Positions 2,495-62,624 of a DNA stretch of 64,000 nucleotides are shown here, in pieces (positions within the stretch are counted from its first letter, which is position 1; each line of letters opens with the position of its first letter). The stretch is from Cupriavidus sp. AU9028. Its GTDB lineage: Bacteria; Pseudomonadota; Gammaproteobacteria; Burkholderiales; Burkholderiaceae. The position numbers and the translations under genes are program-made. Below the pieces are notes generated by a model that was not told the origin of the DNA, ran no database searches, and worked only from the letters and a program-made list of their open reading frames with translations. The DNA is taken from positions 101,375-165,374 of the forward strand of contig NZ_JAIMCG010000011.1 of assembly GCF_019795295.1 (NCBI RefSeq), in the 5' to 3' direction.

Positions 2495-2530
2495 AAAAGA
2501 AAAAGCCCGCGCCATTTGCATGGCACGGGC
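2495..2530 (-). terminator. Intrinsic terminator of the candidate small RNA
   Basis: Stem 2505-2515 with 2520-2530 (GCCCGTGCCAT against ATGGCGCGGGC on the minus strand, one mismatch), tetraloop GCAA, then TTTTTCTTTT at 2504-2495. There is no protein gene upstream on this strand that needs it. Confidence 0.8.
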
Positions 2531-2593
2531 ACAAGTTTCCATGGCGGAAACGGGTAGACAAGTCATGAAGAGCGCCCCCGCATCTTCATGACC
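2496..2593 (-). ncRNA. Candidate FNR-activated small RNA, about 98 nt
   Basis: On the minus strand, an FNR box and -10 element (see 2600-2641) predict a transcription start at 2593. Three hairpins follow directly. The first starts one base after the predicted start: a perfect 10-bp stem (arms GTCATGAAGA and TCTTCATGAC, 2583-2592 with 2562-2571) with an 11-nt G-rich loop. A single-stranded UUGUCUACCC follows (2552-2561). The second has arms GTTTCC and GGAAAC (2546-2551 with 2535-2540). The third is an 11-bp stem with one mismatch and loop 2516-2519, followed by TTTTTCTTTT, a clear intrinsic terminator. No open frame fits. Activation of small RNAs by Fnr is known elsewhere (FnrS, AniS). The alternative is an attenuator or leader for sbp, whose ATG lies 166 bases further on. 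Targets are unknown. Confidence 0.6.
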
Positions 2594-2599
2594 GGGTCG

Positions 2600-2641
2600 A
2601 TGGTACGGCTGCACGCGCGTTATTGCCTTGACCGAGATCAA
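2600..2641 (-). promoter_or_regulatory. FNR-dependent promoter (box plus -10) of the candidate small RNA
   Basis: Box at 2628-2641 reads TTGAT-CTCG-GTCAA on the minus strand, 9 of 10 matches to TTGAT-N4-ATCAA. The -10 hexamer TACCAT is at 2605-2600. The box centre (2634.5) to hexamer distance is 29.5 bases, identical to the ccoN and ccoI promoters in this window, and TACCAT is also the -10 of ccoI. A class II promoter centred at -41.5 puts +1 at 2593. Confidence 0.6.
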
Positions 2642-2770: not shown

Positions 2771-3946
2771 ATGCCTACCCAAACCACGACCTCCTTCGCC
2801 GATATCGCTCCGCTACGAAAATTCTTGTCGTCCGACGAGGGGAACAGGCAGCTAGCCAGAGGCACCAATATCCGCCTGCCCAGCGGCTGCTATTGGATAC
2901 AGAAGACACCGGACCCCGGTGCGGTGCAGGTCGTCGCGCTGATGAACATCGATGCGGCCAACCCTGCCAACGACGACGCAAGGCTGGCGAAGGTCAATGC
3001 GGCGGTCAGCGAGACCAAGGTTGTCGCCGCCTCACAGCCGGAAGACACCACTGAGTCCGGCAAAGCCGGCTGGAAACCCGAATTCGCCTCGGTTGGTGAA
3101 GCGAAGACGCTTCTGCGCAGGCCTGGCGGCGTGGGTGCCCTCGTAGGGGCGGGAGGGTTCACCGCCGGCGTGCGGCAGTTTGTCGTGGAGATGCCCGGCG
3201 ACGGGGGCAAGGTCCGGATTAGCGAGCCCAGCCGTTCCTGGCTCCAGGCGGTACTGAGCCTCTTCCGGCTTGACGACGGCGCGATTCTAACCCGTGCCGC
3301 CAACCGCCATCCCGTACCGCGCGCAATCATATTGGAAGAGCGAATCCACAGCATTCTCGCGGAACGCGAATCCAGGCCAACGGGCACCGACGGCGACCCT
3401 TTCTACCTGCATAGTGCAATCGCCTCCATGAGCATGGGGGCGGGGACGACACACCCGGCTGATTTGCGCAAGATGATGGATGACCCCTTCTTCTGCCATG
3501 GCAACTTCAAGGAGATAGTCCAGGCCGAAGACCCTTCGGTGTTCAAAGCGGTCTTTCAGAGTCCCGGCAAGTGCGGGGCGCTTCGCCTGTCGAACCAGAA
3601 CAGGGTCAAGGGGCCTGCCAGCAGCGGCCTCCAGGGCGACGTCCTGCGAGCGCGGCTGGCAAACTCGCAATATGGCTCCATGCGCGACCTTGTGCGCAGG
3701 TGGGAAACCGAACAGTTGACCGCGATGCTACAGGCCGAGGTCGAGTCTGTGCGCCGCATGCGGTTCCCGGGCATAGGCGACTTTTTCAAGGGCAAGCACT
3801 ATCGCTGCGACGCCATGCCAGAGGGCTATGTCTTCCGCGTCGACGGCAAGCTGCACCTGCACTGCGAAGGGCCGCCAGCGGCCGGCGCTCCACCGCAGCG
3901 GTCTACGGCGAGCGCAGAGGATTCGTCGCAGGGCGCCACACCGTAG
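2771..3946 (+). CDS. Orphan protein of unknown function, 391 aa
   Basis: I do not recognise this protein. It has no signal peptide and no membrane segment. Visible features are a Ser/Thr-rich N-terminus (MPTQTTTSFADIAPL), a Gly-rich stretch GGVGALVGAGGFTAGVRQF around residue 125, a middle region GDPFYLHSAIASMSMGAGTT, and two Cys/His-containing segments (FFCHGNF, KHYRCDAM) before a Pro/Ala/Ser-rich tail. The ATG at 2771 and a GTG at 2717 are both possible starts and neither has a good ribosome binding site. It uses codons rare in the surrounding DNA (ATA in ILEER, KEIV and GIGD; CTA in AILTR and AMLQ), a sign of recent acquisition. It stands alone between the small-RNA unit and clpB, read towards clpB. 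A secreted effector is one possibility, with no direct evidence. Confidence 0.65.
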   Translation: MPTQTTTSFADIAPLRKFLSSDEGNRQLARGTNIRLPSGCYWIQKTPDPGAVQVVALMNIDAANPANDDARLAKVNAAVSETKVVAASQPEDTTESGKAGWKPEFASVGEAKTLLRRPGGVGALVGAGGFTAGVRQFVVEMPGDGGKVRISEPSRSWLQAVLSLFRLDDGAILTRAANRHPVPRAIILEERIHSILAERESRPTGTDGDPFYLHSAIASMSMGAGTTHPADLRKMMDDPFFCHGNFKEIVQAEDPSVFKAVFQSPGKCGALRLSNQNRVKGPASSGLQGDVLRARLANSQYGSMRDLVRRWETEQLTAMLQAEVESVRRMRFPGIGDFFKGKHYRCDAMPEGYVFRVDGKLHLHCEGPPAAGAPPQRSTASAEDSSQGATP

Positions 3947-52433: not shown

Positions 52434-53240
52434 TCACCAGGCCAGGCAGAAGCCTTGCGCGGCGATGGTGTGCGGCAGCCACGCCGCGCGCACCAGGCCT
52501 GCCACGCCGAAGGCGACAATCAGCAGGCCGACGCCGATGCGCACCGGCGGACGGCGCGACCAGGCGCGCAGATGCCCGGCCAGCCCCGACATCACCAACA
52601 GGTTGGGCAGCGTGCCCAGGCCGAAAGCGAGCATCACCAGGGCGCCCGACGCGGCATTGCCGGCGAGCAGCGCAAGCGACAGGGCGCCGTAGACCATGCC
52701 GCACGGCACCATGCCCCACAGCAGGCCGCTCGCGTAGCGGCGCGCCAGCGCGCCGCGGCTGGCGCAGGCTGCCGGCAAGGCGCCGGCAGCGGCAGGCATC
52801 TGCCGGGATGCCGCCAGCCGGCGCAGCGGCACGGCGGTCAAGCGGGCGGCCACCGGTCCGGCCAGGCGCTCCAGCGCCGTGGCCAGCAGCGGTCGGCCGC
52901 CGAGCAAGGCCAGCCCGGACAGGGCCAGCATGGCGCTGCCCGTGGCGAACAGCAGCCGCTGCACCGGCAGGTAGTTCGCCTGCCACGCGCCGGCGCCGAG
53001 CCCGCCGAGCACCGCGCCAGCCATCGCATAGGCGCTGAGGCGGCCTGCGTGAAGCATCAGGGTCTGCACCAGCCACTGGCGCGGGTTGCCCCAGCGGACG
53101 GTGGCGATCGTCGCCGTGGGCGCGCTGGGCCGCCGCTGCGACGGTGTCATCGTCATGGCAATGCCGCCGCACATGGCCGCACAGTGGGCCCCGCCCAACA
53201 GTGCCAACAGGAATACGGATATAAGTACCGCCTCAGTCAC
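52434..53240 (-). CDS. TauE/SafE-like (UreH-type) membrane protein, cbb3 oxidase-linked
   Basis: 268 residues, six to seven membrane helices. N-terminus MTEAVLISVFLLALLGGAHCAAMCGGIAM has the HCxxMCGG signature of the sulfite-exporter TauE/SafE (UreH-type) family that accompanies cytochrome oxidase and copper-handling genes. The second half repeats the layout (SGLLWGMVPCGMVYGALSLALLAGNAASGAL). In related cbb3 clusters such genes lie next to ccoNOQP and are thought to act in copper delivery or cytochrome assembly. It diverges from fnr (79 bases between starts). Function by context and family. Confidence 0.85.
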   Translation of the reverse strand: MTEAVLISVFLLALLGGAHCAAMCGGIAMTMTPSQRRPSAPTATIATVRWGNPRQWLVQTLMLHAGRLSAYAMAGAVLGGLGAGAWQANYLPVQRLLFATGSAMLALSGLALLGGRPLLATALERLAGPVAARLTAVPLRRLAASRQMPAAAGALPAACASRGALARRYASGLLWGMVPCGMVYGALSLALLAGNAASGALVMLAFGLGTLPNLLVMSGLAGHLRAWSRRPPVRIGVGLLIVAFGVAGLVRAAWLPHTIAAQGFCLAW

Positions 53241-53319
53241 TCGTTACTCCCCGGCACCGGAAGTGCACGGTAGAATCGCTTCGCGGCCCGCTGGGCCCAA
53301 CCAGACCCTGGACACCCAA

Positions 53320-54054
53320 TTGCAGACCTCGAACGCCACCATTCCCATCACCGACCGCGCGCCAAAGTGCTCGACCTGCTCGATCGGCCAGCTTTGCCTG
53401 CCGGTCGGCATGTCGGCGCAGGACGTCGAGAAGATGGACGCGCTGGTCCAGGACCGCGTGCGCGTGCGCAAGGGTGACACGCTGTTCCGCCTGGGCGATC
53501 CGCTGGTGGCGCTGTATGCGATCCGCTTTGGCACGCTCAAGACGCACGTGACGATGGAAGACGGCCGCTCGCAGGTGACCGGCTTCTATCTGCCTGGCGA
53601 AGTGGTGGGCTTCGACGGACTGCAGCAGATGAAACACACCTCGGACGCAACCGCGCTGGAGGACACCGAAGTCTGCGTGGTCCGCTACGACGAGATGCAG
53701 CGCATCTCGGCCTCGCTGCCTTCGCTGCAGCACCAGTTCATGCGCCTGATGAGCAAGGAGATCACCCAGGATCAGGTGATGCTGATCACGCTGGGATCGA
53801 TGCGGGCGGAGGAAAGGCTGGCCGGCTTCCTGGTCAACCTGTCGGAGCGCCTGGCCGCGCGCGGCTACTCGCCCAGCGAGTTCGTGCTGCGCATGAGCCG
53901 GGAGGAGATCGGCAGCTACCTGGGCCTGAAGCTGGAGACCGTCAGCCGGCTGTTCTCGCGCTTCGCCGAAGCCGGACTGATCCAGGTGCGCCAGCGCCAC
54001 GTCAAGCTGATCGACATGGCCGGCATCCGGCAGGTGTTCGGCCGCGGCTGCTGA
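53320..54054 (+). CDS. fnr: Oxygen-responsive regulator Fnr
   Basis: CRP/FNR-family regulator that holds an O2-labile [4Fe-4S] cluster and dimerises on TTGAT-N4-ATCAA when anaerobic. 244 residues. Cluster cysteines at 17, 20, 26 (KCSTCSIGQLC) and 119 (TEVC) fit the FNR pattern. cAMP-like beta-roll (DTLFRLGDPLVALYAIRFGTLKT...GFYLPGEVVGFDGL), dimer helix, and HTH MSREEIGSYLGLKLETVSRLFSRF with the E-xx-SR contact residues. Start is a TTG at 53320, selected because it gives the normal short tail before the first cysteine; a GTG at 53263 is an alternative. It reads away from the TauE/SafE gene and toward the cco genes (convergent). Confidence 0.95.
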   Translation: MQTSNATIPITDRAPKCSTCSIGQLCLPVGMSAQDVEKMDALVQDRVRVRKGDTLFRLGDPLVALYAIRFGTLKTHVTMEDGRSQVTGFYLPGEVVGFDGLQQMKHTSDATALEDTEVCVVRYDEMQRISASLPSLQHQFMRLMSKEITQDQVMLITLGSMRAEERLAGFLVNLSERLAARGYSPSEFVLRMSREEIGSYLGLKLETVSRLFSRFAEAGLIQVRQRHVKLIDMAGIRQVFGRGC

Positions 54055-59667: not shown

Positions 59668-59709
59668 ACTGTAGGGGGGGCACCGACAAGCGGTGTTGAT
59701 CTGTATCAA
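59668..59709 (-). promoter_or_regulatory. FNR-dependent promoter of ccoNOQP
   Basis: Perfect FNR box TTGAT-ACAG-ATCAA on the minus strand (59709-59696). -10 hexamer TACAGT at 59673-59668, box centre to hexamer 29.5 bases. Predicted start 59661, leader 34 bases. The organism's own Fnr is encoded 5.6 kb away. Confidence 0.9.
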
Positions 59710-62582: not shown

Positions 62583-62624
62583 ATGGTAGGCGGCGGGGCC
62601 GGGCCCGGCCTTGATCCAGGTCAA
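62583..62624 (-). promoter_or_regulatory. FNR-dependent promoter of ccoIS
   Basis: FNR box TTGAC-CTGG-ATCAA on the minus strand (62624-62611; 9 of 10 matches). -10 hexamer TACCAT at 62588-62583, the same hexamer as the candidate small RNA at 2600-2605. Box centre to hexamer 29.5 bases. Predicted start 62576, 16 bases before the ccoI ATG. Confidence 0.8.

Follow-up and report, generated by a model that had tools for sequence, protein, structure and literature searches.

What is encoded by the stretch downstream of a predicted FNR box at the 5' side of sbp, near one end of a 64,000-nucleotide contig segment of Cupriavidus sp. AU9028 (hereafter the window)? The first-pass annotation of this segment suggested an FNR-activated small RNA (sRNA) at this place. 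Our analysis favors, at a probability of roughly 0.82, an Fnr-activated, trans-acting sRNA that would work in the manner of FnrS and PhrS and that represents the founder of a family of sibling RNAs; the bacterium probably switches this RNA on at low oxygen.

All proposed elements of the unit were recovered at their positions, each on the minus strand. The near-consensus FNR/CRP-family box TTGATCTCGGTCAA (2628–2641), identified by inspection and by a pattern scan, differs from TTGATNNNNATCAA by one mismatch. It is followed by the −10 hexamer TACCAT (2600–2605). The transcription start is predicted at position 2593, one base ahead of the first hairpin, from the spacing of box and −10; given this start, the hexamer covers −12 to −7 and the box is centered at −41.5, the class II position. 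The RNA body of approximately 98 nt (2496–2593), here called type A, is supported by its folding score and by its conservation in 53 copies. Hairpin 1 (2562–2592) has a perfect 10-bp stem with an inner GCG/CGC pairing and an exposed GGGG loop (2578–2575), and this module is common to the sibling RNAs. The single-stranded UUGUCUACCC (TTGTCTACCC; 2552–2561), a candidate pairing region of type A on account of its invariance and unpaired probability, leads to hairpin 2 (GUUUCC/GGAAAC, 2535–2551) and to an intrinsic terminator (2495–2530) formed by an 11-pair stem (2530–2505) and a T tract. The folding energy of the 98-nt RNA is −50.3 kcal/mol compared with −29.0 kcal/mol for shuffled sequences (z = −6.30), and none of 200 shuffles folded as well. 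Judged from sequence, the locus is a discrete, structured RNA unit that ends in a terminator of its own; it is conserved and preceded by a predicted class II FNR-type promoter.

Of 60 genus genomes, including the window's own, 59 contain the unit (DNA matches, E ≤ 0.01), as do all 54 of those of good quality; the sole genome without a match is 54% complete. The RNA sequence is single-copy in the window's own genome. Among the 53 type A copies, with gaps scored as mismatches, mean pairwise identity is 0.837 over the RNA and 0.571 from box to start; outside the unit it falls to 0.235 over the 80 bases preceding the box and to 0.228 and 0.262 over two 60-base stretches below. The edges of conservation coincide with those of the predicted unit, and conservation ends at the T tract. 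A CRP/FNR box at an activating position, TTGAYNNNNRTCAA at −48 to −50 from the hairpin, was identified in 50 of 53 type A copies versus one of 106,000 shuffled upstream sequences, a figure that does not equal an independent-sample probability because the copies are related by descent. The three exceptions (L003, L013, and L022) carry CTGAC in place of TTGAC, and a TAnnnT −10 lies in register in 53/53 copies. A search of 299 genomes of the family with the hairpin pattern detected it in all 40 genus members and in 2 of 259 others, with no match in the reversed control; the two non-genus genomes (G165 and G280) have single matches. The type A/B form of this pattern, which excludes type C, occurs in 65 stretches: 60 from Cupriavidus, two from Ralstonia sp. 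25mfcol4.1, two from Burkholderiaceae bacterium 16, and one from Bradyrhizobium. The Bradyrhizobium match (L211) lacks both box and body and was rejected as a homologue, being a chance match.

Copies with other bodies share the same 5' hairpin. By eye, GCGGGGGCG is present in the 5' hairpin of all twenty additional genus loci that were selected for DNA or model similarity. Among the examined loci, 102 distinct copies fit the hairpin pattern, namely 53 of type A, nine of type C, and 40 others; the occurrence of GCGGGGGCG in all 102 is by construction because the pattern demands it. The 40 others consist of 35 copies of type B, a class that lumps several different middles, four A-like plasmid variants (L108, L109, L199, and L209), and the chance match. 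When the latter is left out, TTGAYNNNNRTCAA is found at −47 to −51 in 39/39 type B copies and plasmid variants. Type C copies (GTCATGGGTGCGGGGGCGCTCCCCATGRC) have TTAAYCNARGTCAA at −49 in eight of nine cases, followed by TAGAAT, and the ninth differs by one spacer letter. A hand tally of pattern matches in 40 genus genomes gave type A in 40, type B in 31, and type C in 14, with 34 genomes containing a type B or C copy besides type A; these tallies are lower bounds because the pattern misses diverged copies. The window's own genome has only the type A copy. That paralogous copies each combine this hairpin with an upstream CRP/FNR-type box of their own speaks in favor of the sRNA reading, and the window RNA appears as the founder of a genus-specific Cupriavidus sibling family that shares the G-rich 5' hairpin.

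The predicted structure bears marks of selection. The alignment of type A (39 rows, 35 distinct) pairs in 98.4% of its cells, compared with at most 47.3% for slid versions, and 62 cells are changed on both sides versus 16.7 in shuffles. All these double changes fall in the terminator, at six of its 11 pairs; by a weaker measure, which counts double-changed pairs, 26 of 500 shuffles reach as high a value. Across paralogues, the 19 variants of hairpin 1 have double changes at 5 of 13 pairs, which one of 500 shuffles equaled, and a covariation of 0.170 (0.105 shuffled, ≤0.091 slid); further pair types are unexceptional (92/500 shuffles as high). Both in the type A alignment and in hairpin 1, the covariation score exceeded that of every shuffle and every slid control. 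Hairpin 2 is invariant in 39/39 rows, and because it never varies it lies beyond a covariation test. The sequence UUGUCUACCC is likewise invariant in the 39 rows, except that two U at its start are absent from one row. Mean unpaired probabilities over 53 copies are 0.98 for GGGG and 0.97 for UUGUCUACCC. Eight further copies fold with z from −3.3 to −6.7; the best fold of one copy (L014) rearranges and does not form hairpin 2. A pseudoknot between the GGGG loop and a downstream C run was rejected as a general feature, since type C and several of the type B bodies do not retain the C run. The first-pass annotation had named a lack of stem conservation among the results that would refute its proposal; the stems proved to be conserved, with compensatory changes, in a unit that occurs throughout nearly all the genus genomes and keeps its box and −10 in fixed register.

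The statement that the unit contains no open frame holds in part. Strictly, three frames of at least 80 aa cross the stretch (minus 1323–2561, minus 2399–2782, and plus 2080–2568), and an 8-residue ATG…TGA frame overlaps hairpin 1 of the window RNA; none looks coding. Indels of one and two bases in the loop of hairpin 2 shift every frame that crosses this loop, and the stop of the short frame is lost in four type A copies, so the frames across the RNA look non-coding. The short frame would be the basis for a different reading, according to which the locus encodes a tiny peptide (ATG AAG ATG CGG GGG CGC TCT TCA TGA in the window): its ATG lies four bases into the predicted transcript, and a similar short frame is found in many type A and type B copies. 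We regard this as highly improbable, given not only the lost stops but also that the frame is a different one in type C and that changes in the hairpin follow pairing.

Whether the RNA could instead belong to its neighbor was assessed from gene order. In the first flank examined, sbp and clpB occur together at 25 of the 53 type A loci, just one of the two occurs at 20, and both are absent at eight; 7 kb on each side of these eight, sbp or clpB appears in six, and the remaining two (in G058 and G006) have neither. As 25, 20, and six loci show either gene, 51 of 53 type A copies reside in a clpB/sbp neighborhood, some with several kilobases inserted. The neighbors had been given as sbp and an orphan gene. 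Among the loci compared, however, the orphan was detected in this genome alone, and clpB/sbp is the usual setting. The orphan itself is a 390-codon frame (2774–3946, plus strand), and it yielded no Pfam or NCBIfam match.

The RNA lies upstream of sbp on the same strand in the window and in relatives with sbp close by, as would be expected if it were a 5' leader or attenuator of sbp rather than a free RNA. Against such a role, which we consider scarcely probable, conservation stops at the T tract, and in L299, L300, and L303 the start of sbp is 3.6 to 6.8 kb away from the RNA. The 49 non-A copies have no sbp or clpB in the flanks examined. A LysR-like frame converges on the RNA in type B copies L100, L201, and L231, and in the latter two the RNA is preceded by dicarboxylate-carrier-like and GntR-like frames, all named from translations; type B copies L203 and L204 do have a same-strand frame a few hundred bases further along. 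For the two plasmid copies inspected, those of pHG1 and of Cupriavidus taiwanensis, the annotation shows no sbp up to a distance of 8 kb.

The pHG1 copy of Cupriavidus necator H16 (L292, 8001–8146) is of type A, is located between phaP2 (approximately 1 kb) and, on the other side, hmpA (<1 kb), and has its own TTGACTTTGGTCAA box and GATAAGATT stretch; nap genes are 5–8 kb off, and no annotated feature lies beneath the copy in a feature table that is incomplete. The C. taiwanensis plasmid copy (L293, 8001–8164; letters identical to L109) has a phasin gene 2.3 kb away, and a further A-like copy is carried by plasmid pSym of C. necator UYPR2.512 (L199, 4356–4456). The four A-like variants have an altered single strand and keep stem 2. 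Such plasmid variants possibly provide extra dosage in low-oxygen niches.

Beyond the genus, similarity fades. A model built from the 39 aligned sequences (R1, whose E-values are rough) scored at least 99 bits in each of 30 genus genomes of a 249-genome family sample; 71 non-genus genomes of this sample had matches at E ≤ 0.01, with no more than 36.1 bits among the matches listed. An order-level sample (n = 250) gave 22 non-genus genomes at E ≤ 0.01 and a maximum of 30.1 bits. By DNA search, eight non-genus genomes of 299 have weak matches (E from 1.9e-4 to 0.0093), seven of which are restricted to the terminator end of the query. TTGAYN4RTCAA was found in the 75 bases upstream of none of 20 inspected non-genus places of the model. 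With these weak scores and the box absent at the 20 places viewed, the non-genus candidates were rejected as homologues. Eleven of them are one different conserved element in genus g11 (L116–L125 and L127), which is built around GGCCCCGTCGCCTWTCCTCGTAGGGCGACGG with a terminator and without an FNR box; two of these loci searched against Rfam (L117 and L121) had no match at threshold.

The window also encodes Fnr, as the first-pass annotation had it: the gene at 53155–54054 on the plus strand (start codon not refined) matches NF008365 with 256.5 bits, above the cut-off of 228. It is the only PF00325 match in a genome that is 94.6% complete. Six FNR-like sites with at most one mismatch occur in the window, compared with 0.49 expected. 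The −10 and spacing of the sRNA had been likened to those of ccoI, and the resemblance is borne out: TTGACCTGGATCAA at 62624–62611 (minus) precedes a heavy-metal P-type ATPase gene (ccoI-like), and TACCAT lies 22 bases beyond this box, just as in the sRNA promoter. A further FNR-type box is located at 59709–59696 (minus).

Since the window encodes Fnr, the sole PF00325 match, this protein would be the most probable activator of type A. Many of the boxes read TTGAC-N4-GTCAA, unlike the E. coli FNR consensus, and PF13545 exceeds its cut-off at five places in the genome, Fnr and four other proteins; because of these boxes and these four proteins, another CRP/FNR protein could act. The RNA would then be real and some or all siblings would be driven, instead of by Fnr, by another member of the family, for example an NO- or nitrate-linked Dnr-like protein. 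This is possible above all for type C, where TTAAYCNARGTCAA stands in the place that others fill with TTGAY-N4-RTCAA, and the location of the pHG1 copy near hmpA and the nap genes would fit it as well. We nevertheless deem it unlikely, since the PF00325 motif is confined to the window's Fnr, and since a similar box and −10 precede ccoI in this window. In seven type C copies (L098, L101, L102, L104, L105, L113, and L115), TTAAYC...GTCAA replaces the FNR box and is perhaps a site for another CRP/FNR protein.

Under the favored reading, that of an Fnr-activated, trans-acting sRNA, scarce oxygen would lead Fnr to bind the box at −41.5 and to activate transcription from the predicted start, and the 5' hairpin and terminator would protect the RNA. 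Pairing with mRNAs, probably assisted by Hfq, may proceed through the exposed GGGG loop, which the siblings have in common, and also through UUGUCUACCC in the case of type A. The outcome would be an expression retuned for low-oxygen respiration, with siblings and plasmid copies raising dosage or dividing the task. Exact 10-base complements of UUGUCUACCC (GGGTAGACAA) are not enriched in 25 genomes (102 matches, the sRNA loci included, versus 161 for the reversed sequence), and GCGGGGGCGC is not enriched in the window's own genome (59 versus 73 in the control); these results may leave room for shorter or imperfect pairing.

The missing enrichment of seed complements, like the retention of one hairpin on otherwise different RNA bodies, would also suit a decoy, in which the invariant hairpin binds a protein and the sRNA titrates an RNA-binding protein with no pairing to mRNA. 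CsrA decoys usually carry several GGA motifs. The window RNA has no repeated motif and a single GGA, in stem 2, and type A keeps an invariant single strand as expected of a pairing seed, so that we give titration alone rather little credence. A broader and tentative proposal treats the G-rich 5' hairpin as a portable module. It would have become attached to three or more different sRNA bodies, all of them driven by CRP/FNR-type promoters, and would have spread to pHG1 and other Cupriavidus plasmids. The copies would together make one oxygen-controlled, multi-copy regulator, possibly titrating an RNA-binding protein by the invariant loop rather than pairing with mRNA; as a whole, we think this unlikely to be correct.

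Cupriavidus serves as a model in research on hydrogen oxidation, CO2 fixation, denitrification, and production of the bioplastic PHB. According to a review, the role of riboregulation in PHB synthesis of C. necator is undeciphered (PMC8401924). A conserved candidate low-oxygen sRNA with siblings, one of which is located between phasin and NO-detoxification genes on pHG1, offers this field a concrete and easily tested regulator, and the sibling RNAs constitute a natural experiment in which one hairpin is kept and the rest is exchanged.

The first-pass annotation recognized no match to a described Burkholderiales RNA, and our search agrees: the only Rfam match at threshold in the window is a tRNA. 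Rfam includes a model of FnrS, which is absent from the window's matches both at threshold and when the E-value limit is relaxed to 5. The 3' half of the window RNA (CGUUUCC...ACUU with the terminator) resembles MmgR/suhB (RF00519) with 27.7 bits (E = 0.00043 when 211 bases were searched). Membership was rejected, as this score lies below the threshold of 41, L025 reached 15.2 bits, and a search of nine loci, including five of type A, gave no such match at E ≤ 0.1. MmgR/suhB is described as an alphaproteobacterial family, in which MmgR lowers PHB and phasins in Sinorhizobium (PMC8401924); its weak likeness, together with the phasin neighbors on plasmids, is a curiosity and not evidence. The Betaproteobacteria toxic sRNA (RF02278) was rejected similarly (22.1 bits in the window and 17 bits in L025 versus a threshold of 50; nothing at E 0.1 in the nine loci). 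For these nine loci the search listed nothing beyond a miRNA model in L096 and anti-hemB in the type C copy L102 (26.1 bits versus a threshold of 49.5). A published study interprets 35 orphan starts as non-coding RNAs, with their positions mostly in its supplements (PMC7563307), and none of the literature titles found by our search names the present RNA.

Several characterized sRNAs nevertheless offer parallels. AniS of Neisseria is an Fnr-dependent betaproteobacterial sRNA; it is likened here by description only, on the basis of the shared Fnr dependence that we propose. Neisseria also has sibling sRNAs, which we take to be those named NmsR/RcoF. They are described as paired sRNAs acting together (PMC5362039). 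The NmsRb model reached 17.7 bits on L025 versus a threshold of 52, and the Cupriavidus copies differ in having CRP/FNR-type boxes. PhrS of Pseudomonas aeruginosa, whose expression depends on the anaerobic regulator ANR as reported (PMC5703892), shares the promoter logic and is likened by description only, being absent from the window's Rfam matches. The same report describes FnrS of E. coli as a hypoxia-induced, FNR-dependent sRNA that regulates at least 32 mRNAs (PMC5703892). FnrS likewise resembles the Cupriavidus RNA in promoter logic, whereas the three-hairpin layout with a G-rich 5' loop sets the latter apart. The window RNA, unnamed in the titles searched, would belong to a known kind, the Fnr-controlled sRNAs.
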